56,215 nucleotides of DNA from NCBI GenBank assembly GCA_029561465.1, contig JAKQIZ010000039.1:1-56215 (forward strand), in the 5' to 3' direction. This document shows positions 7,297-56,215 of the stretch, piece after piece (position 1 is the first letter of the stretch; each line of letters opens with the position of its first letter). A program made the position numbers and the translations under genes. The notes below the pieces were generated by a model that did no database searches, was not told the origin of the DNA, and worked only from the letters and a program-made list of their open reading frames with translations. Source of the DNA: Deltaproteobacteria bacterium (GTDB lineage: Bacteria; Desulfobacterota; Syntrophia; Syntrophales; UBA8958).

Positions 7297-7460
7297 TGAC
7301 ATCGTAAAAAGCGCAAACAATGTCCCATTTGGGACGGCATCGTAAAAAGATCCGCAGGCGAGGCGCGCGAATCCTGAGGAATGAGGAGTACTTGGACGTA
7401 CGTCGCAGTGACGAGGGATGAAGCGCTTTCGAAGCATCCGGACTTTTTACGATGCCGTCA
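7297..7460 (+). repeat. Dispersed repeat family, copy A (full type I)
   Basis: This 164-bp element is bounded by TGACATCGTAAAAAG and the inverted CTTTTTACGATGCCGTCA. Modules in order are the outer end, the palindrome GTCCCATTTGGGAC, an internal repeat of the end motif (GGCATCGTAAAAAG), a conserved core with GTACTTGGACGTACGTCGCAGTG, and GCGCTTTCGAAGC. Copies B and C match closely, E is degraded, D and F are a second type. It ends 91 bases before the autotransporter start. The rest of 7184-7551 holds no gene that I can see. Confidence 0.92.
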
Positions 7461-7551
7461 ATGTTGGCCGACATGAAGGCAAAGAGGAAAACGGGGAGAT
7501 GACGCGCTCATGATGGTACGCCGTTACAAAGGAGGATGAAAGCGAAGCTTA

Positions 7552-10500
7552 ATGTTCATAAGGTTGTCAAGGTATTTTCAGATGAGAAGAGACAAGCTTC
7601 ATATTTTATTGTCGGCGCTTTTTTTTGTTCTTTTCCTTTCCGGGGCGGCGACAGCCGAGGATTTGAACCCTACCTACAAAGAGTCCATTCCCCTGTCCCG
7701 CCAGCATGCTGACAGCCCCGCTGGCTGGGTTCCCGACTATCCCACCTCGGGAAGCAGGCAGATTGTCACCATCCAAGGCGATCCTGACAAGGAAAATGCC
7801 CACTTCGGACTCACATACGATACCAAAGGCTATGGCGACGGCAAGAATTACCTCATTGTCCGGACCTTAAGCAAGACTGATTATATGGGAAGTAATTACG
7901 TCAATCAACCGGGCTATAAGGTGTTCGGCAAGGCGACGGAGAGCGCCTACTGGGTGACGACGGGTAACGAGGCCACAAAATTTCTCCGGGATAACGGCGG
8001 CACCAGCGCCAATATCGTGAAGCTCATGGAGCGCGCCCTGGGCATGAATAACGACGGCTCCCATACGGCGATGGTCGAATATGCCGTCATCGCCGACAAT
8101 GACCACATCCTCCGTCCCACGAAGATTTCCGATTTCAAGACCTATGCGACCAATCCCACCAATTATGGGACGAATGCCTCCTATGGGGAGAAACCTTCCG
8201 ATATGACCCAGGCCACCTACGATAATTATGTCGGCACGGCGACCCAAACGGGCTATTACGAGTACTGGAAGAAAAAGACTTACGATTCCGACGCAGGCAG
8301 TAACGACGCCTTCCCCTGGACGCAGATCGGCTACACCTTTTTATGGGGCAATGGTCAGGAAAAACTGGCCGATATACAGGGATTGAGTGAATTTATCCTC
8401 CTGGGCGGTACGTCTTTACAGATCTACGGCCTCTACTCACCCCAGTCCTACATCTACACCCTCAACAAGGACGGTGCTTTCAGCACGGCCGCAGATGCGC
8501 AATACGGCAACGGTTTCGCCAGTTTCAAGGTTGATGGAACGTGTGATTCCCTCTGGGCGGGACACCGCTTCCAGAGGAACGTCAGCACCGGCGCCGCCAA
8601 TCAGATCAATATCACCAACACCGGTTCCATCTCCGGCGGGCAGGGGCTCTTGATCTGGTCGTTGAACTATGCCGTGAACAACCAGGGGACGATCAGCGGC
8701 GCCACGGCCAACAAGTTCGCCACGACGAACACCGGCAATATCGCTGTCCTCTTCAAAGGGGACACCACGGCTTACGGAGACATCCCTGCTCCCGCCGGTT
8801 CCAACAACCTCACCAACTCCGGGACCATCTCCAGCCCCGGGACGGCGGTCATGGTGGAAGCGGGAGATACGAACATTACCAACAAGTCCGGAGGTCTGCT
8901 TACAGGAGACACGGTTGCCATCCAAATCGGCCAGGCAAACGCTGCGCCGGCGGTAAAAGGAATTATCGACAACACCGGAACCATCAGCAGTTCCGGAACG
9001 GCCATAAAGGCGGACAGAGGAGACAATACGATCGTCAACAATTCCGGCGGCATCATCTCCGGTGGGGTTTATGCCATTCAGACCGGGGCGGGGAACGACA
9101 CCGTGACGGTCAAGGGCGGCGAGATCGCCGGCAAGGTCGATCTCGGGACGGGGCCGGACAAATTCGATGTCACCGGCGCCGACGGCGCCGCCAAGCTGAG
9201 CTTCACCATCGACAGGGACACCGCCGCCTCGGCGCAGATCCTGGTGAAGGATGGGGGCAACGGCACGGTGAGCATTGCGGACAATACCAAGCTGGCCGTA
9301 ACGGTCGGGGGCGCAAAGAATATTCAAAACAACGACCGGTTTCTGATCGCCGATGCGGGCGGAACGCTGACCGTCACCCCGGCTAATCTCGTCATCCAGA
9401 ACGACGGCTCCCTTCCCATGGTCGGTTTTTCCGCCCTGAAAGATGCCAACAAGCTCTACCTGGTGGCGGCACGGAGCAGCAGCTATTACGGAGCCAACAG
9501 CGGCAATGCCTCCCTGGGTTCCCTCCTGGACAGCCTGGCAAATACGGCAACGGGGGATATGGCCAATGTCCTGGGGAATTTGGACAAATCCGGTGATGCC
9601 GGAAACGCCTTGAAATTGCAGCCGAATGTCGATGGCGGGACCATGCAGGCCAGCTTCGGGGCGATGAATAAATACACTGGGGCCGTCGTCAACCGAATCG
9701 AACAGGTCATGACCGGCCGGGCCGCCAGGGAGGGGATGACCGGAATCGCCACGGGCGACGAGTCGGCGCGCAACGGTGCCTGGGCGCAGGGATTCGGAAG
9801 CTATCTGCACCAGGATCCCCAGGGGACGGGCAACGGTTACAGCGCCGACATCTGGGGCGTCGCCTTCGGTTTCGACCGGTATTTCTTCCCCAGTCTCATG
9901 TTGGGACTCAGTGGCGGCTATGCCCGCAACAAGATCACCACCGCCGATCCCAACACCGGCGCCGATGCCGATAGCTACCAGGCGGGCCTCTACGGCAATC
10001 TCGCCCGGGAAGCCTATTATCTCGATGGCATTTTCTCCTTTGCGTATAACAAGTATAACGCCTCGCGGCACATCGCCTTCGGGACGACAAACCGGATTGC
10101 GAAGAGCAATTACAACGGTCAGCAGTATTCAGGCTACCTGGAGGGCGGTTACGCCTTCGGCGTGAACGGTTTCACCATCACACCCCTGGCCTCGGTTCAG
10201 TACATGCACCTCCAGCTCGGCGACTATACGGAGACGGAAGCCGGGGACCTGAACCTCCATGTGGACAGCCAAGGATACAACATGCTCCAGGTCGGTGTCG
10301 GGGCAAAACTATCCTACCAACTTACCAGCCGGGACGTGCGGATCATTCCGGAACTGCACGGCAAGTTTCTCTATGACTTCATCGGCGACCAGCAGCAGGC
10401 CACCGCCACCTTTACCGGGGGTGGCGCCTCCTTTGCGACCAAAGGCTTTGACCCACCCCGGGCGAGCGGCAATCTGGGGGCCAAGCTCACCCTGATGACG

Positions 10501-10596
10501 AAAAACAATCTCTCCTTTGCCCTGAACTACGACTATGAGTGGAAGGCGGGATATTACAGTCATAACGGCTATTTCCATATCAGGTACGCCTTCTGA
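7552..10596 (+). CDS. Autotransporter (type V secretion) outer-membrane protein
   Basis: This 1014-residue secreted protein has three parts. The signal peptide spans residues 1-36 and ends ATA-ED. The passenger spans about 37-730; its middle shows repeating NTGTIS/NSGTIS turns (around residues 345-520), the mark of a parallel beta-helix. The C-terminal autotransporter beta-barrel spans about 735-1014, beginning NGAWAQGFG and ending in the C-terminal Phe of HIRYAF. The barrel inserts in the outer membrane and exports the passenger, whose first 300 residues resemble nothing I recognise. A GGAGG lies 17 bases upstream, farther than ideal; the ATG at 7582 is an alternative start. Adhesion or surface display is the likely role, by inference. 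Confidence 0.9.
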   Translation: MFIRLSRYFQMRRDKLHILLSALFFVLFLSGAATAEDLNPTYKESIPLSRQHADSPAGWVPDYPTSGSRQIVTIQGDPDKENAHFGLTYDTKGYGDGKNYLIVRTLSKTDYMGSNYVNQPGYKVFGKATESAYWVTTGNEATKFLRDNGGTSANIVKLMERALGMNNDGSHTAMVEYAVIADNDHILRPTKISDFKTYATNPTNYGTNASYGEKPSDMTQATYDNYVGTATQTGYYEYWKKKTYDSDAGSNDAFPWTQIGYTFLWGNGQEKLADIQGLSEFILLGGTSLQIYGLYSPQSYIYTLNKDGAFSTAADAQYGNGFASFKVDGTCDSLWAGHRFQRNVSTGAANQINITNTGSISGGQGLLIWSLNYAVNNQGTISGATANKFATTNTGNIAVLFKGDTTAYGDIPAPAGSNNLTNSGTISSPGTAVMVEAGDTNITNKSGGLLTGDTVAIQIGQANAAPAVKGIIDNTGTISSSGTAIKADRGDNTIVNNSGGIISGGVYAIQTGAGNDTVTVKGGEIAGKVDLGTGPDKFDVTGADGAAKLSFTIDRDTAASAQILVKDGGNGTVSIADNTKLAVTVGGAKNIQNNDRFLIADAGGTLTVTPANLVIQNDGSLPMVGFSALKDANKLYLVAARSSSYYGANSGNASLGSLLDSLANTATGDMANVLGNLDKSGDAGNALKLQPNVDGGTMQASFGAMNKYTGAVVNRIEQVMTGRAAREGMTGIATGDESARNGAWAQGFGSYLHQDPQGTGNGYSADIWGVAFGFDRYFFPSLMLGLSGGYARNKITTADPNTGADADSYQAGLYGNLAREAYYLDGIFSFAYNKYNASRHIAFGTTNRIAKSNYNGQQYSGYLEGGYAFGVNGFTITPLASVQYMHLQLGDYTETEAGDLNLHVDSQGYNMLQVGVGAKLSYQLTSRDVRIIPELHGKFLYDFIGDQQQATATFTGGGASFATKGFDPPRASGNLGAKLTLMTKNNLSFALNYDYEWKAGYYSHNGYFHIRYAF

Positions 10597-10773
10597 GTCG
10601 CCAGGCCGTAGGCCTTTGCCCACGTCCTCCCGCGCCGGCTTTTGGCAACTCGCAAACCGCTCGCTGCATCAAGTCGGAACCGGTCCGGCCGGGCCGCCGG
10701 GGATGGCGACGGTTTACGAAGTCGGGCGGCCAGTGGGATGACTGGTGAGGGAGCGTATGCAAGGTTCGCAGCT

Positions 10774-11616
10774 ATGGTTCAAAAATTTCGTGGGCTTTCC
10801 GAGGCCTTAACCGGACTCATCCTGATGCTGATCTTTGTCTGGTGCTGTTCCGGGTGTGTCGGTCCGGGTGGAGCGGTGGCCGACCGGATCGGATCGCGGG
10901 CAGGGTTTGAAAAAACCTTTCTATGGACCCGGGAATTTACGCTTACCGCTTACTGGCGGGGCCGCCGGCCGGGAGCTCCCTTGAATCTCTACCTCGAAGG
11001 GGATGGGTCCGCCTGGATTTCCCGTTCCTGGCGCTCCGACGATCCCAGCCCCCGAGATCCGGTGGCACTGGCACTGGCGGCCCGGGATCCCGGGGCGAAC
11101 GTGGCCTATCTCGCCCGGCCCGGCCAGTATGCCGCGCCGGGATCGCCCCCGGTCGATCCCGCCTTCTGGTCCGACCGCCGCTTTGCCCCCGCGGTGGTGG
11201 CAGCGCTCGGCGAGGCCGCGGACCTCCTTTTGGCGAAGACTCGGGCGAAGGGGGTCAATCTCATCGGCTATTCGGGCGGGGCCGCCCTGGCCGTGCTGAT
11301 GGCCGTCCAGCGAAACGATGTCCTGAGCCTCCGGACCGTGGCGGGGAACCTGGACCCGGAGGCGGTGAACCGCCATCATCGCGTCAGCCCCCTGGCCGGG
11401 TCCCTCAATCCTATGGATGCGGCGGCACAACTCCGTGACCTGCCCCAGCGTCATTTCGCAGGCGCCGAGGATGCCGTGGTGCCCCCCTTCGCGGCCGGGA
11501 ATTTTATCCGCCGTCAGGGCGGGGATGACCGGCGCGTCATCATCGTTCCCGGAGTGGGCCACGGCAACGGGTGGCGGGAACGATGGTGGGAACTGCTGAG
11601 CTTTCCCCTATTTTGA
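10774..11616 (+). CDS. Lipoprotein alpha/beta hydrolase
   Basis: This is a predicted membrane-anchored hydrolase of 280 residues. The N-terminus has a hydrophobic segment ending in a lipobox-like CCSGC, so it is probably lipidated and periplasm-facing. The fold is alpha/beta hydrolase: nucleophile elbow GYSGG (about residue 167), an acid in GAEDAVVPP, and a catalytic His in VPGVGHGNGW. The N-terminal strand LNLYLEGDG is typical of this group. The ATG at 10774 is favoured (AAGG ten bases upstream); an in-frame ATG at 10738 exists. The last nine bases overlap a small convergent gene. Substrate unknown. Confidence 0.78.
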   Translation: MVQKFRGLSEALTGLILMLIFVWCCSGCVGPGGAVADRIGSRAGFEKTFLWTREFTLTAYWRGRRPGAPLNLYLEGDGSAWISRSWRSDDPSPRDPVALALAARDPGANVAYLARPGQYAAPGSPPVDPAFWSDRRFAPAVVAALGEAADLLLAKTRAKGVNLIGYSGGAALAVLMAVQRNDVLSLRTVAGNLDPEAVNRHHRVSPLAGSLNPMDAAAQLRDLPQRHFAGAEDAVVPPFAAGNFIRRQGGDDRRVIIVPGVGHGNGWRERWWELLSFPLF

Positions 11617-11730
11617 TTTCTTCGCTTCTGCCGCCCGCTGTTCTCTTGCCTTGGCCCGGAGACGTTCCTTCCGCCGTTTGCGCCGGCGATCGATTTCTCT
11701 TTTCCGTTCGATCTTCTTGTGTTGTGCCAT
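11608..11730 (-). CDS. Small highly basic protein, 40 residues
   Basis: The 40-residue product starts MAQHKKIERKREIDRRRKRR and ends in KKSK; well over half of the residues are Lys, Arg or Glu, suggesting one long charged helix that could bind RNA or the ribosome. AGGGAG sits six bases upstream of the ATG, which supports real translation. It lies tail-to-tail with the lipoprotein hydrolase and overlaps its 3' end by nine bases. I recall similar short basic proteins in related genomes, but I know no function and assign none. Confidence 0.7.
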   Translation of the reverse strand: MAQHKKIERKREIDRRRKRRKERLRAKAREQRAAEAKKSK

Positions 11731-11803
11731 TCGTTTCTCCCTGTAAATTTATCAGTATTCCAAACTATTTACGAATAAAACACCGCGGGCGGATCAATGC
11801 CGT

Positions 11804-12745
11804 TCAGATTCCGATCTCCAAGCCGTCGTAGGCCAGGTATATCTCCAAGGCGCTTGTTTCGGATAGAATCTTCAGATAGGTCCGCGTGTCCGCCAGCAGC
11901 TCATCAAAGGTCTCGTCATCGTAGGTATGTTCGTGATGGAACAGACAAAGGCGTTTGACCTGAGCCTCCACGGCCATTTCCACGCCGATGACGTTGCTGG
12001 AGTGCCCCCAGTCCTCCTTGTCCCCGATGGCGTCGAGCAGGGTGTACTGGGCGTCGAAGATGAGCAGGTCCGTATCCCGGATGAAATCGAGGTAGGCGTA
12101 ATTGGAACATTCCGCCTCCTTTTTGTGTTCCGAATCCGTGGAATATACGACGCTCCGGCCGTTTTTCGTGAAACGGTACCCATAGGAGTCTCCGGGATGA
12201 TGCTGTCGCGCCCCCCGTACTTGGAAACCTGCAAACTCATAAATCTCGTCCACCCGCAGGGGGTGGAAGGAGATCTCCGCCCGCATGGCCGGCAGGGGAA
12301 TGGGAAAAAAAGGCGGGCTTTGCTGGGTCGCGAAGGCCGCTTCGAGGCCGGGATGAAAACCGTAGATTTTGATCCGGTTGCCAGGAATGTAGGCGGGAGT
12401 GAAAAACGGAAAGCCCTGGATGTGGTCCCAGTGAAGATGAGATAGGAAGATGTGGAAGACTCCTCGGGCGCCCGGCAGGCTGTTGCCGAAGTCCCGCAGG
12501 CCTGTGCCGGCATCGCAGATGACGTAATCCTCGCCGCCCCGGATCTCGATGCAGGAACTGTTGCCGCCGTAGCTTCCCCGGATGGAAAAAGGCAACTCCC
12601 GATCCACGAAGGCGGCAAGCGCGTGTTCATCGCCAAAGACTTTTCCTTGGGCCGCCCGGAGTGCTCCGATAACCTTGGCCCGGACCTGGGACGCCTTGAG
12701 GGAGGCGGGCAGGGAGCCCCGAGTTCCCCAAAAATGGACGCGCAT
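11804..12745 (-). CDS. MBL-fold metal-dependent hydrolase
   Basis: This is a 313-residue cytoplasmic metallo-beta-lactamase-fold hydrolase. It starts MRVHFWGTRGSLP, a signature of the cyclic-phosphodiesterase / RNase Z-like branch, followed by YGGNSSCIEI, CDAGTGLRDFG, the metal motif HLHWDHIQG (about residues 102-110), and later ligands in QHHPGDSYGYRF, STDSEH and FHHEHTYDDE. A phosphodiesterase or phosphoribosyl cyclic phosphate-type substrate is likely by family; the exact one is unknown. It is convergent with dacB-side genes and transcribed after the FmdB gene upstream. Confidence 0.85.
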   Translation of the reverse strand: MRVHFWGTRGSLPASLKASQVRAKVIGALRAAQGKVFGDEHALAAFVDRELPFSIRGSYGGNSSCIEIRGGEDYVICDAGTGLRDFGNSLPGARGVFHIFLSHLHWDHIQGFPFFTPAYIPGNRIKIYGFHPGLEAAFATQQSPPFFPIPLPAMRAEISFHPLRVDEIYEFAGFQVRGARQHHPGDSYGYRFTKNGRSVVYSTDSEHKKEAECSNYAYLDFIRDTDLLIFDAQYTLLDAIGDKEDWGHSSNVIGVEMAVEAQVKRLCLFHHEHTYDDETFDELLADTRTYLKILSETSALEIYLAYDGLEIGI

Positions 12746-12777
12746 GTAGTGCCCCCTCCTTTGCCGATATGTATCGT

Positions 12778-13275
12778 CTATAGATCGTAAAGGGTTTCGT
12801 CGATTTGCGGCTTCGCCTTCGCGGCCCCTTTCTTTCCTTTCGGGCCTTCGAACAGGAACGGTTCCTCCGCTTCCAGGAGCTCTCCCATTTCCGCGTCGAT
12901 CTGTTCCGGGTCCTCTCCCTTTTCCATGCGGCGCAGGGCCTCCTCCATGGCCGGGCCGAGATTCATCCCTGTAGCCTCGGTGAGTTTCCGCATGAGGTCG
13001 GCCGCCTGCCGGGGGTCGTCTTCATTGAGTTTATCGGCTTCGCCGGCCAGCATGGTCATGGCCTTTTCCATGGCCGCCTCGTCGATGGGAGGCATGCCCT
13101 CCGTTTCAGGTCCTTCTTCGCCGCCGGTCTTGATCTTGGCAAAAACGGACATCTGTCGCTTGAGCTTTATCCTTTTGCATTTCGGGCACTTAGGAATTTT
13201 ATCCGTATTTACGCCTTTGGAAAAAAAACTATAGACGGTGTTGCACTTATGACAATAAAACTCGTAAATAGGCAT
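12778..13275 (-). CDS. FmdB-family zinc-ribbon protein with acidic tail
   Basis: The 165-residue protein begins MPIYEFYCHKC and has a second CPKC about 25 residues on, a single zinc ribbon of the FmdB regulatory-protein family. A long Glu/Asp-rich helical extension follows (residues ~60-165), which is longer than the usual ~70-110 residue FmdB protein. AGGAG lies eight bases before the ATG. Members are annotated as putative regulators without firm function. It precedes the MBL hydrolase on the same strand with a 32-base gap, so they may share a transcript. Confidence 0.85.
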   Translation of the reverse strand: MPIYEFYCHKCNTVYSFFSKGVNTDKIPKCPKCKRIKLKRQMSVFAKIKTGGEEGPETEGMPPIDEAAMEKAMTMLAGEADKLNEDDPRQAADLMRKLTEATGMNLGPAMEEALRRMEKGEDPEQIDAEMGELLEAEEPFLFEGPKGKKGAAKAKPQIDETLYDL

Positions 13276-13391
13276 CCGCAATGCTCCTGAAATTTTTTTC
13301 AGCAATATAATCATCCTGTTAGGAAAAGCAAGGGAAATTTTATCTTGGTTTCCCTGACACGATACGCCGCCCCGCCCCTGATCTTCTTTCT

Positions 13392-13550
13392 CTAAAAATC
13401 GAGGTTGATCCGAACGCGTCCGAAGGGGCCGTCCTGAATGTCGAGACGGTTGAAATCCCGATCGGAATAATCCTTGCCTTCGAAATACATCCGGTCGAAG
13501 ACATACCCCCCGCGTCTGATGAAGAGCAAGGCCTTTTTGCCGTTCTAAAC
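13392..13550 (-). pseudogene. C-terminal gene remnant, unrecognised
   Basis: On the minus strand a protein-like stretch reads GKKALLFIRRGGYVFDRMYF and on to a C-terminus VRINLDF before its stop. Upstream the frame is cut by a TAG near 13546, so no start fits and it looks like the tail of a lost gene. A C-terminal Phe and alternating hydrophobics would suit an outer-membrane or repair-type protein, but I cannot name it. Repeat copy B lies about 100 bases away and may be linked to the loss. The remainder of 13276-13647 shows no gene. Confidence 0.3.
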
Positions 13551-13647
13551 CAGCCCGGCAATTGACATTGACAGGACGAGGTCTTTTTTGCATAGAAAAC
13601 GGAAGATGCAGTCATCGCCTCTTGCCAGCGAAGAGACGATCAAAATT

Positions 13648-13813
13648 TGACGACATCGTAAAAGGTCAAAAAATGTCCCATTTGGGACGGCATCTTAAAA
13701 AGATCCGCAGGCGAGGCACGCGCATCCTGAGGAATGAGGCGTACTGGGACGTACGTCGCAGTGACGAGGGATGAAGCGCTTTCGAAGCATCCGGACTTTT
13801 TACGATGCCGTCA
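13648..13813 (+). repeat. Dispersed repeat family, copy B (full type I)
   Basis: This 166-bp copy has the same module order as copy A: TGACGACATCGTAAAAG end, GTCCCATTTGGGAC palindrome, internal GGCATCTTAAAAAG, core GTACTGGGACGTACGTCGCAGTG, GCGCTTTCGAAGC, and a closing CTTTTTACGATGCCGTCA. The flanking bases CAAAATT and AATTTG extend the inverted symmetry. It ends 40 bases before the dacB start, with the same end facing the gene as in copies A, D and F. Confidence 0.92.
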
Positions 13814-13853
13814 AATTTGAAAAGATTCCCGAAAGAGATCAGGCCCGAAGGCC

Positions 13854-15482: not shown

Positions 15483-15589
15483 ACTACCGGTTGCCGCTCC
15501 ACGACTGCGAACTGACTGACCCGAGTCGGTCAAGGCCGCGGTAAGCTCTTCCATGATTAACCGGCCGGTTCCCTTTTCCTTGTTTATCT

Positions 15590-15623: not shown

Positions 15624-15635
15624 CATTCCTCCTCT

Positions 15636-32255: not shown

Positions 32256-32421
32256 TGACGGCATCGAAAAAGTCCGGATGCTTCGAAAGCGCTTCATCCC
32301 TCGTCACTGCGACGTACGTCCAAGTACGCCTCATTCCTCAAGATTCGCGCGCCTCGCCTGCGGATCTTTTTACGATGCCGTCCCAAATGGGACATTTTTT
32401 GCGCTTTTTACGATTTCGTCA
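32256..32421 (-). repeat. Dispersed repeat family, copy C (full type I)
   Basis: This 166-bp copy runs opposite to A and B. It has TGACGGCATCGAAAAAG, GCTTCGAAAGCGC, the core GCGACGTACGTCCAAGTAC, internal CTTTTTACGATGCCGTCCC, the palindrome GTCCCAAATGGGAC and a closing CTTTTTACGATTTCGTCA. It ends four bases before the stop of the downstream minus-strand gene, so unlike A, B, D and F it sits at a gene's 3' end. Confidence 0.92.
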
Positions 32422-41665: not shown

Positions 41666-41692
41666 ATCTTTCCTCCCTATTCTCGCCATTAT

Positions 41693-41847
41693 TGACGACA
41701 TCGTAAAAAGTCCATATGCGGCGTTGCGCTTCATCCTTCGTCACTGCGACGTACGCACAAGTACGCCTCATTCCTCAGGATTCGCGCGCCTTGCCTCTGG
41801 AGCTTTTTACTTCGCCGTCTCCATCATGACTTTTTACGAATTCATCA
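41693..41847 (-). repeat. Dispersed repeat family, copy D (type II)
   Basis: This copy lacks the GTCCCATTTGGGAC module. It has TGACGACATCGTAAAAAG, the variant GTCCATATGCGGCGTTGCGC, the core GCGACGTACGCACAAGTACG, CTCATTCCTCAGGATTCGCG, a GAGCTTTTTACTTCGCCGTC inner end, and an outer CATGACTTTTTACGAATTCATCA. Its first 139 bases differ from copy F by one base as far as I can count. It lies 27 bases before the sugar-binding protein start. Confidence 0.92.
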
Positions 41848-41997
41848 TTATTTCCTGATCGGATAAATTTTCCAACTATGATGATATTTTACGGTGAGCG
41901 GGGCGGTTGTGTCAAGGAGAATCGCCAGGAATCGCCGGGATTGTCAATAGCCAATGGAACTGTCCGGTTTTGTACCAAATGATTTGTCCGCATTATC

Positions 41998-42026
41998 TTG
42001 ACAGATACGGTATTACTAAGTAATAT
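41998..42026 (+). promoter_or_regulatory. Promoter with internal palindrome, toward the znuB-type gene
   Basis: TTGACA (41998-42003), 17 bases, and TAATAT (42021-42026). The palindrome ATTACTAAGTAAT (42012-42024) overlaps the spacer and the -10 box, so a repressor could act here. Transcription would run through repeat copy E to the permease gene 340 bases downstream. Confidence 0.5.
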
Positions 42027-42099
42027 AAGCGCCGGCAAGAAACACAGACGGCAACCGGAGCGACGAAACGGATTCAGCCTGGCAACTCGCGAACAGCAT

Positions 42100-42237
42100 C
42101 GATGAGCCCGTAAAAAGCGGGCTTGGTGCTTTTAGTCCTCTGCTTCTCATTCCTCAGGATTCACGTGCCTTGCTTGCGGAGTTTATTTACCAGGCCGTCC
42201 CAAATGGGACATTTTTTGGTTTTTTACGATGTTATCA
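42100..42237 (-). repeat. Dispersed repeat family, copy E (degraded type I)
   Basis: This shortened copy keeps the outer and inner ends and the palindrome: GCCCGTAAAAAGCG, CTCATTCCTCAGGATTCACG, CCTTGCTTGCGGAG, GGCCGTCCCAAATGGGACA and TTTTTTACGATGTTATCA. The central GACGTACGTC core and GCTTCGAAAGC block are lost. The tract 41848-42099 otherwise contains only a promoter. Confidence 0.8.
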
Positions 42238-42369
42238 ATGTTCAACGGGGAGACTTTTTGGAGATTCGTCATTGGGATCATAGGGAAGGCGATGGGCCAC
42301 TTCTTTACAAACGTCATGAATGGTTCCGGTTTCAGACAAGGTCTTGCGAGGGCGACGAGGAAAAGATGA
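42238..42369 (+). CDS. Possible 43-residue leader peptide or gene tail
   Basis: An open frame starts at ATG 42238, just outside repeat copy E, and stops at the TGA overlapping the permease start (ATGA). It reads MFNGETFWRFVIGIIGKAMG and ends in GFRQGLARATRKR. The stop-start overlap suggests translational coupling, so this may be a leader or the tail of a lost upstream ABC gene. I do not recognise it and no good ribosome site precedes it. Confidence 0.25.
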   Translation: MFNGETFWRFVIGIIGKAMGHFFTNVMNGSGFRQGLARATRKR

Positions 42370-43226
42370 GTGCCTTTTTGACCGATCTGCCCCGGTATCC
42401 CTTTCTCCAGTATGCCCTCCTCACGGGGCTGCTGGTAAGCGTCGCCTGCGGGATCATCGGGAGTTATGTGGTTACCAAGCGGATCACCTATCTCGCCGGC
42501 AGCATCGCCCATACTGTCCTGGGCGGGCTCGGGGCCGCCCGGTACTTTCAGACTGCTTATGGCTGGGAGTGGCTCCATCCCCTTTACGGGGCCGTTTTCG
42601 CGGCGCTGCTGGCCGCGGTGATCATCGGTCTGGTGAGCATGGGGGCCCGCCAGCGGGAAGATACGGTCATCGGGGCCCTCTGGGCCATCGGCATGGCCGT
42701 GGGGATCCTCTTCATCTCCCGGACCCCCGGCTACAACGAAGATCTGATGGGTTATCTCTTCGGGAACATCCTGATGGTCTCCCCTGGAGAGCTCTGGATG
42801 ATCGCCGGCCTCGACATTGTGGTCGTGGCGGCCGGGACGCTATTCTACAACCACTTCCTGGCCCTGTGCTTCGATGAGGAATTCGCCCGCCTCCGGGGCG
42901 TCCGGGTGGAGATCTACTATCTTGGGCTTCTCTGCCTCACCGCCCTGACCGTGGTCCTCCTGGTCTCCGTGGTAGGCATCGTCATGGTCATCGCCCTCCT
43001 CACCCTGCCCGCGGCGGTGGCCGGGGAACTGACGAAACGTTTGTGGCACATGATGGCCCTGGCCACCGTTTTGACCGTCCTATTCACCACCGCCGGTCTG
43101 GCGTTCAGCTACGGGCCTGATCTGCCCGCCGGGGCCGTGACCGTTGTTTTTGCCGGTCTCGCCTACCTGCTGGCGGCTTCAGGGTTGCAAATCATCCGGC
43201 GCCATGGCAGGGCGAAACAGCCGTAA
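42366..43226 (+). CDS. ABC-3 type metal permease (ZnuB/MntB-like), orphan
   Basis: The 286-residue protein has eight or nine hydrophobic helices and ABC-3 family motifs: GIIGSYVVTKRITYLAGSIA, HTVLGGLGAARYF, GNILMVSPGELWMI, and FDEEFARLRGVRVEIYYLGL (the EAA-like cytoplasmic loop contacting the ATPase). It would form the membrane channel of a zinc, manganese or iron importer. The ATPase (ZnuC) and binding protein (ZnuA) that normally precede it are missing; repeat copy E and a promoter take their place. ATG 42366 follows GAGG. The cupin gene downstream is convergent. Confidence 0.9.
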   Translation: MSAFLTDLPRYPFLQYALLTGLLVSVACGIIGSYVVTKRITYLAGSIAHTVLGGLGAARYFQTAYGWEWLHPLYGAVFAALLAAVIIGLVSMGARQREDTVIGALWAIGMAVGILFISRTPGYNEDLMGYLFGNILMVSPGELWMIAGLDIVVVAAGTLFYNHFLALCFDEEFARLRGVRVEIYYLGLLCLTALTVVLLVSVVGIVMVIALLTLPAAVAGELTKRLWHMMALATVLTVLFTTAGLAFSYGPDLPAGAVTVVFAGLAYLLAASGLQIIRRHGRAKQP

Positions 43227-45071: not shown

Positions 45072-45090
45072 GATCCGGATTTGCGGTTCT

Positions 45091-46601: not shown

Positions 46602-46614
46602 GATAGGTAGCCCT

Positions 46615-48448: not shown

Positions 48449-48490
48449 CCTATATGCAGAAGAGGTCAGCCGCCGGGCCGGGGACCGACA

Positions 48491-49228: not shown

Positions 49229-49256
49229 GATATTCTTAACCTCCGGAAAAATTATT

Positions 49257-49493
49257 TTATGCCTTATGCGGATCTCGATTGGCAAAGTTGTCCATAGGGG
49301 TGGCGCCGGCGATGAGGCCCAGAATAATCAGGACCCAGTAGCTTACCGACGTCGATAGCTTAAAGTGTCTTGAAATCGGTATGATGGAAGTATTGACCAG
49401 GGAACAATCCAGGTTGACGGCGCCGGCCAGGGAGGCGGCGAGAACGATGAGGGTGATCCGGCTTTTCTTGTTGGTCGTTAACGGAGCATTCAT
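49257..49493 (-). pseudogene. MFS transporter N-terminal fragment
   Basis: The product MNAPLTTNKKSRITLIVLAA continues with the first membrane helix SLAGAVNLDCSLVNTSIIPI and SRHFKLSTSVSYWVLII, as in DHA2-type major-facilitator drug exporters. It then joins ILGLIAGATPMDNF, which resembles a much later MFS segment, and ends after NRDPHKA. About 78 residues remain of ~450, so a large internal deletion is likely. The gene is not functional. Confidence 0.65.
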
Positions 49494-49638
49494 ACAAATA
49501 TATGGTAATCTTGCATAATAATCAAAATCAGTCAATCATAGAAAACCAGATCGGTTTCGGTGTCGCGCCAGCGGCAGCAGCCCTTGACTTTCCGGCGATA
49601 ATAATTAATCTTTACAGTAAATAAAACCGAGGAGGCGG

Positions 49639-50187
49639 ATGATGGCAAACAAAGGCAAGGAGGCGCGGAGGACAAAAGTCATCGAGGTGTTGAACAAGGC
49701 TCGGGCCATGGAACTGCAGGCGATTCATCAGTATATGAACCAGCACTACAACCTCGATGATATGGATTACGGAGAATTGGCGGCCAACGTCAAGCTCATC
49801 GCCATCGACGAGATGCGTCATGCGGAGATGTTTGCCGAACGAATCAAGGAACTGGGTGGGGAGCCCACTACGGAGCCTGCTGACAAGGTCCGCAAGGGGC
49901 AGAAGGTGGAGGAGATCTTTTCCTTCGATGCCGTCCTGGAGGACGACACCATGGACATTTACAACCAGTTCGTCCTTGTCTGCCGGGAAAACGGCGACAG
50001 CGCCACGATGAAGCTTTTTGAAACGATAATAGAGGAAGAGCAGTCCCATTTCAACTACTTCGACAATGTGGACGAGCACCTGGCCAAACTGGGCGCCTCT
50101 TTCCTCGCCCGGATCGCCGGCACCCCTGCGGATACCGGCCCCGCCTCCAAGGGATTTGTTACCGGTGGCGCCGGCGGGGCAGCTTAA
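49639..50187 (+). CDS. Bacterioferritin/ferritin-like iron storage protein
   Basis: The 182-residue four-helix protein carries the diiron ligands of bacterioferritin: RAMELQAIHQYMNQHY (helix A Glu, about residue 25), AIDEMRHAEMFAERIKELGG (Glu-x-x-His, about 58-61), and IIEEEQSHFNYFDNVDEHLA (Glu-x-x-His in helix D). It oxidises and stores iron and protects against peroxide. The C-terminal tail is Gly/Ala-rich and longer than usual. The second ATG (49642) has better spacing from GAGGAGG. No bacterioferritin-associated ferredoxin is adjacent. Confidence 0.9.
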   Translation: MMANKGKEARRTKVIEVLNKARAMELQAIHQYMNQHYNLDDMDYGELAANVKLIAIDEMRHAEMFAERIKELGGEPTTEPADKVRKGQKVEEIFSFDAVLEDDTMDIYNQFVLVCRENGDSATMKLFETIIEEEQSHFNYFDNVDEHLAKLGASFLARIAGTPADTGPASKGFVTGGAGGAA

Positions 50188-50237
50188 TTCCCCGGATTTG
50201 TTCAGGTTTGGTGCCGGTTCATGAGGAGTATCGCTGC

Positions 50238-51782
50238 TTATGATCTGAATTGAAAAGATTTTTCTTGGAATAATCTCAAACAGGCATCCACGACATCCGA
50301 ATCATACAGTTTGCCTTTATTGCGATTAATTTCCTCCAGCGCTGCTTCCAATCCCAGGGCCGGCCGGTAGGGACGATGGGATGCCATGGATTCCACCACA
50401 TCTGCCACGGCTAGGATGCGGGCCTCGATGATAATCTCATTTCCCTTTAGGTTTCTCGGATAACCGGAACCATCCAATCGCTCGTGATGCTGATATATTA
50501 TCTCTGACAAAGGCCAAGGCGAATCAATATCTTTAAGTATTTCGTATCCTTTTTGAGAATGTTGTCTGACAAAGGACATTTCCATTTCTGAAAGTTCTTT
50601 TGGCTTGACCAATATTTCTATGGGTACGCATAATTTCCCTATGTCATGAATCCTTCCCGCGATATGGATGCCTTCAATTTTATCCAAAGGCAACCCCATC
50701 TCCTTGGCAATATCTCCGGCAAGTGCGGCTGAGCGGATGTGGTGACCGGCCGTATATGGATCTCTTGCTTCCACGGTGGATGCCATAGCTTTGATAGTTA
50801 CATAAACAGCTTTCCTCAGTCGGTCAAGGGCATTTTGGAGCTTTTGCTCCGCCAGCCTACGTTCGGTGAAGTCTTGGTAAACGAATTGAAAATGCCTAGT
50901 GCCGTCCCAAAGTATGTCCTTGCGGAAGACCTGCAGATGGCGGATTTCACCATTTTTTCCGATGATGCTTTTTTCATATTCTGTAGGGATATAATCATCA
51001 TTTGTTATTTCAAACTCGGCACAGATTCCCGACGTACAGTGATTTTCTGCAGGGGTAGTTTTCAATTCCTCGACACTGTCATAACCATACATTTTCAAGA
51101 GCGCCCGATTGACATAAACGGTTTCACCTTCTTCGGTTAAAATACGCACACCCATGGGGAAATTATCAAGAGAACGGCGGAAATTCTCTTCGGTACGACA
51201 CAGCCGATCTTCGACATTTTTTCGCCTGGTGATGTCACGGACAGTGGTAATGAACGTTCCTTGGCTATCAATCTCTTCTACGTGATCTATATTCAACATA
51301 GCATAGTAAACGCTTCCATCTTTCCGCTTTAGCCGGATTTCGTAGTCGCGCACTTGGCCGGATTTGCGCAGAAGATCACATATTATAAAGCGTTCATTTG
51401 GATCAGCAATGCCATGACCGATTTTGAAAGCTTTTAACTCGTTCAAAGAATAACCGGTTATTTCTTGCATGCTCCGGTTGGCGGCCCGCACGGTTTTTTC
51501 CCGGTCCGCAATGCCAATTCCGATTGGAAGAGTATTAAAAAGCAGCTGATATATTTCTTCACTCCACCTTAATGAATCTTCAATCTGTTTATGATCAGCA
51601 ATGTTACCGGATGAGGTGAGATCTGCCTGCAGTCCGGGATCGTTATGTGACCTGTCTATCCGCATGCGGTCCGCGTCTGTTTGTTCCAAATTGTGGGGCA
51701 GCCGGTTTGGACATTCCATCTTTTCCGCCGAAGATTGTCTGCTGTCGGATAAATCTCCCCTATCGTGGATATTACGGTTCAT
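50238..51782 (-). CDS. PAS-PAS-HD-GYP cyclic di-GMP phosphodiesterase
   Basis: The 514-residue protein has a polar N-terminus (1-65), two PAS/PAC units (about 70-195 and 196-315, each ending in an RDITRRKNVE or QDFTERRLAEQKL coupler), and an HD-GYP domain (about 325-510). The HD pair is HDIGKLCVP (about 377) and the family box is HHERLDGSGYPRNL (about 428). The domain cleaves cyclic di-GMP. It overlaps the upstream PAS-GGDEF gene by 11 bases, so the two are translationally coupled and form a cyclic di-GMP make/break pair. No membrane helix is visible. Confidence 0.93.
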   Translation of the reverse strand: MNRNIHDRGDLSDSRQSSAEKMECPNRLPHNLEQTDADRMRIDRSHNDPGLQADLTSSGNIADHKQIEDSLRWSEEIYQLLFNTLPIGIGIADREKTVRAANRSMQEITGYSLNELKAFKIGHGIADPNERFIICDLLRKSGQVRDYEIRLKRKDGSVYYAMLNIDHVEEIDSQGTFITTVRDITRRKNVEDRLCRTEENFRRSLDNFPMGVRILTEEGETVYVNRALLKMYGYDSVEELKTTPAENHCTSGICAEFEITNDDYIPTEYEKSIIGKNGEIRHLQVFRKDILWDGTRHFQFVYQDFTERRLAEQKLQNALDRLRKAVYVTIKAMASTVEARDPYTAGHHIRSAALAGDIAKEMGLPLDKIEGIHIAGRIHDIGKLCVPIEILVKPKELSEMEMSFVRQHSQKGYEILKDIDSPWPLSEIIYQHHERLDGSGYPRNLKGNEIIIEARILAVADVVESMASHRPYRPALGLEAALEEINRNKGKLYDSDVVDACLRLFQEKSFQFRS

Positions 51783-53484
51783 AACATATCTTGTCTTTCC
51801 CGCCCTTTTTCGCTTGATACATGAGTTGATCTACCCGATGCACGAAAGCTTTAATGCCTTCATGAAGTTTAAACTGCGCAAGTCCGATGCTCATCGTCAC
51901 ATGCACGCCTTTGCCGGGCATGGGTGAAAAAATTTCTTTCTTAAATTCATTTTTTATCCTTTCTGCCGTAATGACGGCATTCTTGCTTTCCGTCATGGGG
52001 AGAATAACGCTAAATTCCTCGCCACCATATCGATAAGCGGAATCCGTTTTGCGCAAGCATTTTTTAATCACCTGACCTAGGCGCATTAAAACCTTATCGC
52101 CCTCGACATGACCATAAGCGTCGTTGAACTTCTTAAAATCATCGAGATCAAGGAAAAGAAGCGTTATTGCTTCTCCATACCTATTGGCACGATCGCATTC
52201 CATCTCCAGTTGATGGTAAAAACACCTGGAATTGTATAGTTTAGTGAGATCATCGGTAATACTGAGTTCACGGTATTTATTTTCATTGTTCCGCAAGATC
52301 TTTTCCATTTCCTTCCTTTTGGTAATATCGCGGCCAACACCGAATCTACCCGTTACTCGATCCTTGTCGTCATAAATATTGGAAGTCAGAAACTCTACGA
52401 CAACATGACTCCCTTCTTTTCTAATTAATTTCGCTTCATAGGGACGAGAGTCGGGGCTCTTTACGCCTTGCTTGAATTTCTCCGTGATCGTTTTCCTTTC
52501 CTCGGGGGCAATGACCATGGTAAAAGGACGACCTTCAAGCTCGGATAGTGCATAGCCGGTTACCCTTTCAAAATTCGGATTGACATAGGTGACGAGCCCC
52601 TGCCGATCCACGATGAAGACAAAATCATTCGTGGTTTCCACCAGGGTCCGATATCTGAATTCGCTCTCCCGCAACGCTTTTTCCGCCTGCTTGCGGTCAG
52701 TGATGTCACGGGCCATTGCATGGAAACCGACTATATGGCCGCCTTCTCTGATTAACCGGACATTCTGCCCGAACCACAGTTCGCGACCGTCTTTGGTACA
52801 AACAGGATATTCCGAGTACGTGCATTCAATTTCCCTCACGAATTGTAGTTCAAAAAACTTAATCGCGGCGTCAACCATATCCGTACGGATCAACATCCTG
52901 TAATGCTTGCCAATGATTTCTTCTTTTTTGTAACCTGAGATACGGAGCAAGGCGGGGTTTACGAGCGTAAAATGTCCGTTGTTGTCTGTACAGAAGATGA
53001 TGTCACTGGCATTTTCCACAAATGAACGGTAACGATCCTCACTCTCATGCAAGGCTTGCTCCATATGTCGCTTTTCGGTGATATCCCGCAAAGATTCGAC
53101 GGCACCCACGATATTACCTGCATGGTCGAGAAGGGGTGCGGCAATTCCCCACAAGTATGCACCGTTGCCTTTCCGCAGCCTGGGGACGAAACCCTCTCCA
53201 TAGGTTGTAACTTCTTTCCTGACTATAGTGGCATAATATTTTCTCAATATCTCTTCGGGCTCATACACGAGATCTATGAGAAGCGGCCTTTTTTCCCCAT
53301 AAAACGGGAGGGAATAATCATCCCTCCCCAGCATATATTCTTTCTTGATCCCGGTCATCTCTACGATGGCCCGATTCCAGGCAATGATCCGTTTTTCATT
53401 GTCGATGGCAAAGGTGGCGTCAGGCAAGTATTCCACAATGTTTGTTTGATGATGCGGCACTTTTTGATAATGGATGTTTTTCAC
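51772..53484 (-). CDS. PAS-PAS-PAS-GGDEF diguanylate cyclase
   Basis: The 570-residue cytoplasmic protein contains three PAS/PAC units (about 13-140, 141-265, 266-390: RDITEKRHMEQAL, RDITDRKQAEKAL, RDITKRKEMEK couplers), then a GGDEF domain (about 400-565) with the active site RYGGEEFSVILPM (about residue 484). GGEEF is a functional variant for cyclic di-GMP synthesis. The first PAS resembles that of the next gene upstream (54 kb: WNRAIVEMTGIK, LPFYGEKRP), indicating duplication. It overlaps the HD-GYP gene downstream by 11 bases. The ligand is unknown. Confidence 0.93.
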   Translation of the reverse strand: MKNIHYQKVPHHQTNIVEYLPDATFAIDNEKRIIAWNRAIVEMTGIKKEYMLGRDDYSLPFYGEKRPLLIDLVYEPEEILRKYYATIVRKEVTTYGEGFVPRLRKGNGAYLWGIAAPLLDHAGNIVGAVESLRDITEKRHMEQALHESEDRYRSFVENASDIIFCTDNNGHFTLVNPALLRISGYKKEEIIGKHYRMLIRTDMVDAAIKFFELQFVREIECTYSEYPVCTKDGRELWFGQNVRLIREGGHIVGFHAMARDITDRKQAEKALRESEFRYRTLVETTNDFVFIVDRQGLVTYVNPNFERVTGYALSELEGRPFTMVIAPEERKTITEKFKQGVKSPDSRPYEAKLIRKEGSHVVVEFLTSNIYDDKDRVTGRFGVGRDITKRKEMEKILRNNENKYRELSITDDLTKLYNSRCFYHQLEMECDRANRYGEAITLLFLDLDDFKKFNDAYGHVEGDKVLMRLGQVIKKCLRKTDSAYRYGGEEFSVILPMTESKNAVITAERIKNEFKKEIFSPMPGKGVHVTMSIGLAQFKLHEGIKAFVHRVDQLMYQAKKGGKDKICYEP

Positions 53485-53793
53485 CTGAAAATACTCGCCT
53501 ATATGCTTGCATTCATTGAGATTGCTGAATATAATTCCCCAAAATTACCCGGTAGGAACAGTTTCGGATACTTTTTTCCCCTTTGTGACGTGACACCGTT
53601 ATGGGCGTTTCGCCAATCAATAAAGGAATAAAGATAAAATCTTTCCGCTTCTTTATTTGCATATTGAAAATCAACGAAAAGACAATGCTGAAATGTTTAT
53701 TAGAAATCTTAAGATATATTAACGGTACGGATTGGTGGAGGCGGACTGAAATGATCTTCCGGATTCAGGATCTCCGAGACGCCAGCGAGTGAA
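53485..53793. other. AT-rich intergenic stretch between PAS genes
   Basis: This 309-base stretch lies upstream of the PAS-GGDEF gene and downstream of the PAS-LuxR gene. It is richer in A and T than the surroundings and contains no gene that I can recognise. It most likely holds the promoter of the cyclase operon. Confidence 0.4.
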
Positions 53794-55104
53794 TCAGCTT
53801 AGGGACGAGAGGTAAAACCTCAGGTTTTGGGTGTTCGTCAACCCGAGTTTCTTCCGGATATGATAGCGATGGACATTGATGGAACTTTCCGAAATATTGA
53901 GAATTTCGGAAATCTCCTTGGTGGTTTTCTCTTCCTTGATCAAATTTGCTATCTGCATCTCTTTGTTGGTCAGGTTCAGACACTTGAGGGATAATTTCTG
54001 GATAAACGGCGATACGATGTCGTTGAGATTCGATTCCAAGATGTCAACATAAGCAAGTCCCTTGGAATTGGTATGATGTTTCAGCTTGTCAATGTACGGC
54101 TGGATCAGTAATTTGACATTGGACACAATGGTTCCTTCCAGTTCTTTCCGGTCGTCTTCTTTCTGTCTCAACAATACCCGCAAGGCGGCATTCAAGTCTT
54201 GAAGCTCTTCAGTTTTCAATGCCAGCTCTTTCTCTCTGCTCTTCAGGATCGTATCCTGCCGCCTCCGGGCGGTAATGTCGATGAGCGATTCAATGGCGCC
54301 GACGATGTTGCCGGTACTATCGTTAAGAGGGCTTGCCTTCCCCCAGAGAAATGCCCTTTCACCTTTCAAAAATGGGACTTCCGACTCTGCAACCAGTAAG
54401 TCATTTTGCTTCTGAATAATGATTCCATATTGTCGTTCATATTCCTTGTCTGGTTTTAGGATCAAATCCAGCATTATCGGCCTCCGTTTTCCATAGAACG
54501 GCAGGGCATACTCATAGTCACCTTTGCCCATCATATCTTTTGCCTTCACGCCCGTCATTTCTTCCATGGCGCGGTTCCAGGCGATAATACTCCCCTTCCG
54601 GTCAATGGCCATGGTCGCTATGGGGAGAAAATCGATAATCTCCATCAACCTTTGTTCTGATGCCCGTAATGCCTCCTCGATCCGTTTACGGTCCGTTATG
54701 TCCAAAAGCAATGATAGCATCACATCTTCATTGTTGAGTTGAATGATTTCACATGACCATAGAGTTTCCTTTAGCTCCCCGTTCTTGTTGCGGATTGTTA
54801 TCAGTTCATCCTTTATTGATCCTTCTTTTATCAATCTCGCCACGAGAGGCGCTCGATCATCATAATTCTCCCAGATAGACAGTTCATCTACCGTATGATT
54901 AAGCATCTCCTCCCTGGTATATCCCAGAAGCGTCAACGCGCTATTGTTAACATCCAGATAGCATCCATCCGTAATCGTGCTGATCAATGTCGGCGCGGGG
55001 CTGGCCCGAAATGCTTTGTTAAAGCGCTCTCTACTGGAAATCAAGGCTGTTTCGACTTTTTTTCGTTGGGTAATATCACGTACCATGTTTGACGATATTT
55101 TCAT
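53794..55104 (-). CDS. PAS-PAS-LuxR-type regulator, 5' truncated
   Basis: The 436-residue protein begins at the tail of a PAC motif (NMVRDITQRKKVE), so its first PAS domain has been lost or lies in another frame. Two PAS/PAC units follow (about 18-145 and 150-275), then a helical linker (280-365) and a LuxR/GerE helix-turn-helix (about 370-436) with LTNKEMQIANLIKEEKTTKEI, SEILNISESSINVHRYHIRK. It would bind DNA and respond to a small signal; it may control the downstream cyclase pair. ATG 55104 is the first start; an upstream palindrome (55136) lies where the missing exon-like part should be. Confidence 0.82.
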   Translation of the reverse strand: MKISSNMVRDITQRKKVETALISSRERFNKAFRASPAPTLISTITDGCYLDVNNSALTLLGYTREEMLNHTVDELSIWENYDDRAPLVARLIKEGSIKDELITIRNKNGELKETLWSCEIIQLNNEDVMLSLLLDITDRKRIEEALRASEQRLMEIIDFLPIATMAIDRKGSIIAWNRAMEEMTGVKAKDMMGKGDYEYALPFYGKRRPIMLDLILKPDKEYERQYGIIIQKQNDLLVAESEVPFLKGERAFLWGKASPLNDSTGNIVGAIESLIDITARRRQDTILKSREKELALKTEELQDLNAALRVLLRQKEDDRKELEGTIVSNVKLLIQPYIDKLKHHTNSKGLAYVDILESNLNDIVSPFIQKLSLKCLNLTNKEMQIANLIKEEKTTKEISEILNISESSINVHRYHIRKKLGLTNTQNLRFYLSSLS

Positions 55105-55135
55105 TGCGCCTGATGATAATCCGGCGGGGGGAAAT

Positions 55136-55157
55136 CTCTGCCGGAGCTCCGGCAGAG
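55136..55157. repeat. 22-bp perfect palindrome
   Basis: CTCTGCCGGAGCTCCGGCAG plus AG reads the same on both strands. It lies between the second ParB-like gene and the truncated LuxR-type gene. It could be a hairpin terminator for the former (no T tract) or a regulator site. Confidence 0.5.
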
Positions 55158-55229
55158 GTTAAATGTATGATATTAATGGCGAATTGACGACACTGCGCGC
55201 CGTTTTTTATGATTCTTTCCGCGCCGCCG

Positions 55230-56036
55230 TCAGGCCAATCGGCGGGGCTGCAACCGGGAAAGGATCTCGTTGAGACGGGCTGACAATTCCGCGCTGAATT
55301 GGTCGATTTCACCGGTGAGGCGGGTCTTCTCCTCCTCGCCCAAGGCGGCAAGTTCCAGCTTGGAGATCCTGGTCTTCACGGCGTTGAGATTCCTTACCGC
55401 CCCCTGGACGACCTCCAGTTCCGACGGCGCTTCGTGAATCCGGCGCTCCTTGCGGAGCTCGCCGCTCGTCAGGCCGCGCTCCTTATACTTCTTGTAGAGG
55501 CTGAGCATGGAGCGGGCCTGCTTCTTCCGGGCGATCTCGATGAGGATCTGCCGGAGACATTTGGGGTTGTTGCGGCAGTCGTCGCGAATCTCCTGAGGCA
55601 GGTTGTTCAGGGTCAGGATATCCGTAACCGCCTGGCGGCTCTTGCCGATGACCCCCGCCGCCTGCTCATGGGTGTATTTCATATTGTCGACCAGACGCCC
55701 CAGGGCCTCCGCCTCCTCGATAACCGTCAGGTCCTGGCGTTGGAGGTTTTCCACCAGGGCGATCTCGGCGGGCGAACTATCCACGTACAGACCCGGGATG
55801 GAGAGGAGACCGGCCTTCTTGGCCGCGGCAAATCGCCGTTCCCCCGCCACGAGCAGCACGTAGCCCGAGTCGCCCGGACGGAAAAGGACGGGCTGCAAAA
55901 CACCAAGTTGCTTTATGGACGCCGCCAGCTCATCCAGGGCTTGCGGGTCCATGTATTTACGGGGTTGATCGGGGTCCGGTTTGATGTCGATGATCGGCAG
56001 TTGGTAGAGTTTACCTTTTTCAAAAACAGCAGCCAT
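55230..56036 (-). CDS. Orphan ParB/RepB/Spo0J-like protein (copy 2)
   Basis: The 268-residue protein has the ParB domain: DPDQPRKYMDP, LAASIKQLGVLQPVLFR, AGERRFAAAKKAG (a canonical CTP-binding GERR box, unlike copy 1), VENLQRQDLTVIEEAEALG, and a helix-turn-helix (HEQAAGVIGKSRQAVTDILT). The C-terminal 70 residues are charged. It shares the KGxLYxL start, the DPxQPRK box and the HTH with the gene at 20359, so the two are paralogues. No parA adjoins either. ATG 56036 follows AAGGAGG. Repeat copy F ends 40 bases upstream. Confidence 0.9.
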   Translation of the reverse strand: MAAVFEKGKLYQLPIIDIKPDPDQPRKYMDPQALDELAASIKQLGVLQPVLFRPGDSGYVLLVAGERRFAAAKKAGLLSIPGLYVDSSPAEIALVENLQRQDLTVIEEAEALGRLVDNMKYTHEQAAGVIGKSRQAVTDILTLNNLPQEIRDDCRNNPKCLRQILIEIARKKQARSMLSLYKKYKERGLTSGELRKERRIHEAPSELEVVQGAVRNLNAVKTRISKLELAALGEEEKTRLTGEIDQFSAELSARLNEILSRLQPRRLA

Positions 56037-56076
56037 TGGTTCCTCCTTCCATGCTTCGTAATGACCGCGATAACAT

Positions 56077-56215
56077 TGACGACATCGTAAAAAGTCCATA
56101 TGCGGCGTTGCGCTTCATCCTTCGTCACTGCGACGTACGCACAAGTACGCCTCATTCCTCAGGATTCGCGCGCCTTGCCTCTGGAGCTTTTTACTTCGTC
56201 GTCTCCATCATGACT
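56077..56215 (-). repeat. Dispersed repeat family, copy F (type II, cut by the contig end)
   Basis: This 139-base stretch is almost identical to copy D over its whole length; I count one difference (CGTCGTC against CGCCGTC). It runs in the same orientation as D and off the end of the window. It lies 40 bases before the second ParB-like start. Confidence 0.93.

Follow-up and report, generated by a model that had tools for sequence, protein, structure and literature searches.

A dispersed repeat of Syntrophales genomes is very probably a new family of miniature inverted-repeat transposable elements

We analyzed a 56,215-nt stretch of DNA (hereafter the window) from a Deltaproteobacteria bacterium of the order Syntrophales (GenBank assembly GCA_029561465.1, contig JAKQIZ010000039.1), which corresponds to contig 69 of a 2.62-Mb draft genome in 194 contigs. 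We confirmed that it harbors six dispersed copies, A to F, of a short repeat, at the places where an earlier note, made from the sequence alone, had located them. These repeats are very probably a miniature inverted-repeat transposable element (MITE), i.e. a non-autonomous DNA transposon that is presumably mobilized by a DDE-type transposase encoded elsewhere and duplicates 4 bp of its target. Direct support comes from the inverted repeats at the ends, from duplications of 4 bp, from a high, dispersed copy number and from the occurrence of the same ends in many relatives. As far as the open-access literature searched shows, the repeats form a new MITE family of ordinary mechanism and unusual anatomy. 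The mobile miniature element suggested by the earlier note is borne out by target duplications in three data sets.

Insertion-site specificity

Both ends were found in 44 copies of the genome that carries the window (the source genome), and both flanks were readable in 41. An exact 4-bp duplication borders 26 of these 41 copies, against 1.4 on average and at most 6 in 1000 shufflings of the flanks, which answers the call of the earlier note for a target-site duplication test. When candidate end pairs were considered instead, the duplication was present in 36 of 107 pairs of the source genome, in 24 of 58 from G051, a genome of another genus of the same order, and in 16 of 73 from other loci (2.2, 0.8 and 1.2 after shuffling, respectively); these denominators are too large because inner-outer combinations of ends are included. 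Matches of 5 bp numbered 6 in G051 and 7 at the other loci. The 76 duplicated sites converge on a palindromic target, YCA-ANNT-TGR, with A just before the duplication in 83% and T just after it in 86%, ANNT inside, and then a preference for G and A. We regard this 4-bp target rule as well supported.

Abundance and distribution

In the source genome, the terminal inverted repeat (TIR) gave 165 hits at ≤2 mismatches and none with a reversed pattern, and the stretches examined yielded 61 separate core-type copies bearing a right end, as well as 61 right-end hits at ≤3 mismatches. The contigs of the draft genome often stop inside the repeat, as the window does at 56077–56215, which makes the copy number a minimum estimate. 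With a size of 127–171 bp, the copies are too short to encode a transposase. The search of relatives recommended by the earlier note recovered the TIR at ≤1 mismatch in the source genome and in 27 of 59 relatives from the genus, family and order, the reversed control giving 0. All seven congeners tested matched the element part of the query, with 4 to 41 matches per genome, a few matches lying outside the element and at most 40 candidates being scored per genome.

Further afield, one scan found the exact 21-base end in 18 stretches of named genome contigs. Sixteen are labelled Deltaproteobacteria, Thermodesulfobacteriota, Desulfobacteraceae, Desulfosarcina, Syntrophaceae, Syntrophus or Syntrophobacterales; the two others are labelled Pseudomonadota and Nitrospirae, and the Nitrospirae copy carries a 4-bp duplication. 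In other genera more generally, contigs labelled Deltaproteobacteria included, these ends are likewise accompanied by 4-bp duplications. There was no match at E 1 in a plasmid collection queried with two copies or in a phage collection queried with one. In G051, some copies are arranged in tandem or closely spaced, occasionally with a common end (L254, L258 and L271). Pairs of congeners share insertions at identical gene ends (L360/L370, L361/L384, L406/L383 and nine further clusters), which marks some copies as old, retained insertions.

Architecture of the element

Most full copies display three end-like sites, namely outer left, inner left and right. The inner-left site was searched 20–49 bp from the outer-left one, and the starts of the two lie 27 bp (14 copies) or 35–38 bp (29 copies) apart in 43 of 47 copies of the source genome. 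Similar spacings recur in G051 (35–37 bp in 30 of 38 copies, from a set of 52) and in the other copies (27 bp in 7 and 36–38 bp in 15, i.e. 22 of 26, from a set of 28). The sequence of this left spacer varies by lineage while its length keeps two classes about one helical turn apart. On this pattern, the double left site may provide two putative protein-binding sites in phase; common descent could also preserve the spacer length, the copies within a genome being related. Some 128-bp copies begin at the inner site, and L185 and L187 among them have a 4-bp duplication of their own, as judged by eye.

The same ends, together with a 4-bp duplication, surround unrelated interiors in other genomes (L062, L068, L096, L104 and L108). 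The mobilized group is therefore defined by its ends and not by its interior. Another such element with its 4-bp duplication was seen at L105, and L282–L287 hold different interiors between the same ends; palindromes such as GTCATTCC...GGAATGAC occur among such elements. The source genome contains a further short family of 122 bp (L278:6586–6707) with the same ends, a different interior and an AAAA duplication, and similar ends are found in L279 and L280.

A conserved hairpin in the interior

Copies A and D fold much better than their shuffled counterparts (z of -5.2 and -5.3; 200 shuffles each). For covariation, 132 cores, overlapping loci included, were grouped into 29 clusters and, after one with another interior was dropped, 28 representatives below 88% identity were retained. 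In these, the hairpin pairs in 95.7% of cells, against 87.9% in shuffles, and double-sided changes number 67, compared with 19.0 on average and 31 at most in 500 shuffles; the sequences scored also served to derive the structure, which favors pairing. Over the pairs common to both strands, G-U outnumbers A-C (27 vs 7), and the sense strand folds at lower energy in 26 of 28 sequences; with the structure derived from the antisense strand, the G-U excess is nearly gone (35 vs 28). Weakly, this points to retention, as RNA, of the strand that reads toward the right end. An alternative source of the matched arms is template switching, which can keep palindromes matched without selection.

The six window copies and their surroundings

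The window contains 19 TIR-like sites at ≤3 mismatches, against 1.0 expected and a maximum of 4 in 100 shuffles, and 16 of them fall within the six copies (Table 1). The features that the earlier note had described are present in the window copies: ends in inverted orientation, an end repeated internally, the GACGTACGTCGCAGTG core and, in type I, the GTCCCATTTGGGAC palindrome. Small corrections were needed: copy A truly starts at 7294 and not 7297, E is an internally deleted and decayed copy, and F is cut by the contig end. The 4-bp duplications at A, B and D are an addition to its description.

Table 1. Coordinates of the repeat copies and associated features in the window
Feature	Description	Position	Strand
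Copy A	type I, full length, 167 bp	7294..7460	+
Target duplication of A, left copy	ATGT	7290..7293	
Target duplication of A, right copy	ATGT	7461..7464	
Inner-left site of A	end-like	7332..7349	+
Copy B	type I, full length, 166 bp	13648..13813	+
Target duplication of B, left copy	AATT	13644..13647	
Target duplication of B, right copy	AATT	13814..13817	
Inner-left site of B	end-like	13685..13702	+
Copy C	type I, full length, 166 bp; inner-left site 32366–32383	32256..32421	-
Copy D	type II, full length, 155 bp; inner-left site 41803–41820	41693..41847	-
Target duplication of D, gene-proximal copy	ATAA on minus strand	41689..41692	
Target duplication of D, distal copy	ATAA on minus strand	41848..41851	
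Copy E	type I, internal deletion and decayed ends	42100..42237	-
Copy F	type II, cut by contig end	56077..56215	-

Copies A, B, D and F lie 91, 40, 27 and 40 bases before a start codon with the right end gene-proximal in all four, exactly as first noted. By eye, a ribosome-site-like GGAGG stands at normal spacing for D and F and 16 bases before the start for A, and B has only GAAGG. Copy D is flanked by a promoter-like site (41915–41886, minus strand, 11 of 12 positions matching) and by the start of a periplasmic binding protein gene; a promoter-like match was sought in the region of copy A and none was found. The type I palindrome followed by T's resembles a terminator only when read toward the left, and such matches near A occur in about the number expected by chance. 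An Rfam search of the window gave no match at the gathering score.

Copy E lies upstream of a conserved gene with a start near 42366. In this region (41998–42380), the degenerate copy stands between a promoter-like site with TTACTAAGTAATA and the start of the gene. The congener G002 has the same promoter stretch ahead of the gene, with no match to E found there, and five other congeners have a different sequence at this place.

Position relative to genes

To count orientations, genes were taken from a home-made hexamer predictor, so that starts are approximate. In the source genome, a core-orientation filter was applied and copies between genes running one way were counted. Within 300 or 400 bp, a start codon is faced by the right end in 20 cases and by the left end in 6 (p = 0.009); within 200 bp, the counts are 15 vs 6 (p = 0.08), and a Fisher test that takes all faces up to 400 bp gives 0.003. 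A BLAST-based orientation of 66 copies gave 19 vs 5, and a first pass over 52 elements 16 vs 5. Random orientation elsewhere in the genome, named beforehand by the earlier note as speaking against its reading, is thus not what these counts show. Both subtypes lean alike (13:5 and 7:1), so no subtype-specific signal explains the bias. A replication-strand cause was ruled out in this genome by non-adjacent genes, which show no lean (21 vs 17).

The picture is different in relatives. Right-to-left ratios are 5:15, 3:9 and 1:8 in the congeners G003, G006 and G007 (25, 22 and 16 copies, respectively, these being the better-matching places and not a random sample). Merged, they amount to 9:24 (p = 0.013) from 63 copies that form 51 clusters, 12 of them common to more than one genome; a first pass over 66 elements had given 10 vs 33. 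The difference between the source genome and the congeners is marked (p = 0.00015). A strand effect may lie behind the congener bias, since non-adjacent genes lean as the adjacent ones do (19 vs 37). In G051, the ratio is 9:14 (62 copies) or, BLAST-based, 9:17 (65 copies), after 3 vs 8 in a first pass over 25 elements. The bias noticed at the outset is hence genuine in the source genome. It does not show regulation supplied in a set orientation: three congeners have the opposite lean and G051 has none, and such a flip between sister species makes a fixed regulatory role unlikely. As part of the MITE explanation, the bias of the source genome is very probably a lineage-specific outcome of insertion or selection and not a conserved regulatory device; it may come from selection against one orientation in leaders.

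Many copies sit between convergent genes or at stop codons, and in congeners the right end itself often gives the TGA stop of the neighboring gene: this was found for 22 of the 40 right ends that face a gene end there, 13 of 36 in G051 and 2 of 18 in the source genome. For insertions inside a gene, the reading frame alone predicts one third, which the congener value exceeds (one-sided p = 0.004). Both ends offer an entering frame a TGA and then, 11 bases further in, a TAA; in four consensus ends, the TIR stops two of three frames on entry, so that an insertion near the 3' end of a gene would be tolerable.

Candidate transposases

Profile searches used PF01609 (9 genomes, later 18, with G051 in both sets), PF00665 (11 genomes) and PF13701 (18 genomes). 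They covered draft genomes with 1.5 kb of flank, and 13 of 43 matches in one search came without a locus. Neither did any of the transposase loci checked possess both ends at ≥15 of 18 positions, nor did any of 173 loci, 24 viral stretches included, contain a pair of ends 0.4–4.5 kb apart with a 4-bp duplication. Single-ended matches of 15–16 of 18 occur at eight loci; in the one inspected, L306 (the same place as L298), the match lies inside the transposase gene. In G051 and G029, ends some 2.9 kb from each other belong to separate MITEs with ordinary genes in between, and ten open reading frames (ORFs) beside single ends were judged by eye not to be transposase-like. The remark in the earlier note that no transposase with matching ends is present has held across the loci searched, non-exhaustively.

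The ends of the IS21 family of insertion sequences are of the form TG...CA, generate duplications of 4–8 bp and have repeated binding sites at an end. The present MITE resembles them in its TG...CA ends, short duplications and repeated end sites. It differs in that G051 and G029, both rich in the MITE ends, have no rve match at E 0.001, and in that the single rve locus of the source genome has one end about 1.5 kb from its ORFs and no partner. The 11 loci obtained with PF00665 in 11 genomes yielded no matching pair of ends on an IS21-like element in a non-exhaustive search. On contig 75 of the source genome (G000), an ORF with an rve match overlaps a second ORF in an IS21-like layout (L279:3862–6016), without a pair of MITE ends.

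Discussion

In the mechanism we propose, a transposase that is absent or unbinned, presumably of the DDE class, would act in trans, cutting at the TGA...TCA ends and inserting the element into YCA-ANNT-TGR with duplication of exactly 4 bp. The second left-end site may serve as a further transposase-binding site. A gene hit near its 3' end would be closed at once in two of three frames, surviving copies would probably lie where they are least harmful, in leaders and at gene ends, and the interior hairpin would be maintained, possibly as RNA.

Several observations weigh against this explanation. An exact duplication is lacking in 15 of the 41 copies of the source genome, none was found for copy C, and the decayed copy E has none either; other lengths are slightly above shuffles (5 bp, 3 vs 0.5; 7 bp, 2 vs 0.05). 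In congeners, only 10 of 66 copies have a duplication with a rougher end finder, and therefore most copies there are old or their outer end was missed. No clean empty site was found among 75 joined flanks compared with the loci analyzed: the single candidate, L052 vs L189, has a 15-base gap at the junction, and the other junction-spanning hits inspected are self matches or element copies. These two loci are paralogous promoter regions, each followed by a small gene that begins in lipoprotein-like fashion; a type II copy is present in one and missing from the other. The 67 transposase loci from three Pfam families, some representing the same place twice, include no autonomous element with these ends, a failure that is weak evidence of absence because draft assemblies lose multicopy elements. 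Finally, a plain MITE would not require an interior hairpin that is conserved across genera.

That hairpin invites the view that the repeat is a conserved structured RNA, such as a riboswitch-like leader, multiplied because many genes are under its control. The stability (z of -5.2 and -5.3), the covariation, the preponderance of G-U over A-C pairs (27 vs 7), the lower energy of the sense strand (26 of 28) and the 20 vs 6 orientation bias all fit such a leader. We nevertheless consider it highly improbable, since target duplications lie at the element boundaries, the orientation bias is opposite in congeners and lacking in G051, many copies are located in convergent intergenic regions or at stop codons, Rfam has no match in the window, the G-U excess is nearly lost on the other-strand structure (35 vs 28), and template switching could match the palindromes without selection. 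A non-repetitive conserved RNA as the cause of the similarity, the other objection foreseen by the earlier note, is excluded by the target duplications, although a conserved hairpin does exist inside the element. Still less credible is a repeat of the repetitive extragenic palindromic or bacterial interspersed mosaic element type (REP/BIME), moved as a single-stranded hairpin by a Y1 transposase (the REP-associated tyrosine transposase, RAYT): the hairpin shape, high copy number and intergenic position agree with it, while the exact 4-bp duplications and long TIRs do not. To our knowledge, Y1 enzymes make no target duplications.

A MITE domesticated in the source genome as a 5'-leader or promoter module, and for that reason facing starts, is a stronger contender and yet unlikely. 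It would account for the 20 vs 6 bias, for the lack of bias at non-adjacent genes and for copy D standing between an 11-of-12 promoter match and a start codon. It is at odds with the opposite bias of congeners (9 vs 24) and with the region of copy A, which has no promoter-like match; the type I palindrome with its T's is terminator-like only toward the left and near A is at about chance number, and the bias is modest and found in both subtypes (13:5 and 7:1). Beyond the MITE explanation itself, we tentatively raise a wider possibility, which we consider unlikely to hold as a whole: one end pair (TGAYGRNNTCGTAAAAAG) and its transposase would mobilize unrelated interiors across Desulfobacterota and Nitrospirota, with a main class bearing a helically phased three-site end and an RNA-selected hairpin. 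By inserting at gene ends with its own TGA as stop, this class would constitute a mobile gene-end or leader module whose orientation flips between sister species.

No description of this MITE family was found in the open-access literature searched, and among the matches listed for the end and core strings the titles concern unrelated subjects. The Chunjie MITE of Geobacter uraniireducens is described as a mostly intergenic element of 178–235 bp with TIRs, direct repeats and tens of copies (PMC10969869). On that description alone, it is like the present MITE in coming from a former deltaproteobacterium, in its TIRs and direct repeats and in its mostly intergenic location, and differs in size (178–235 vs 127–171 bp). 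Dispersed multicopy sequence families, one set with inverted-repeat ends, are reported in Geobacter metallireducens (PMC2700814); as far as that account goes, by description and not by alignment, they resemble the present MITE in belonging to a related group, in their dispersion and, for one set, in their inverted-repeat ends. The Correia elements of Neisseria are presented as short elements with TIRs and many copies, often upstream of genes, that can affect expression (PMC10969869). As described there, they share with the present MITE the short TIR form, the many copies and the upstream positions. Correia elements are generally known to duplicate TA, in contrast to the 4 bp within YCA-ANNT-TGR duplicated here, and the region of copy A has no promoter-like match.

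The MITE generates dispersed repeats widely among lineages labelled Syntrophus, Desulfosarcina, Desulfobacteraceae and similar, and several contigs of this draft genome end at it. For specialists, its notable traits are the phased double left site, the shared ends with swapped interiors, and the sharing of stop codons combined with a lineage-dependent orientation. Both the terminal TGA that falls in frame and the phased double left site lend themselves to concrete tests, and the opposite orientation in sister species offers a natural comparison between MITEs kept for regulation and MITEs kept where they are least harmful.

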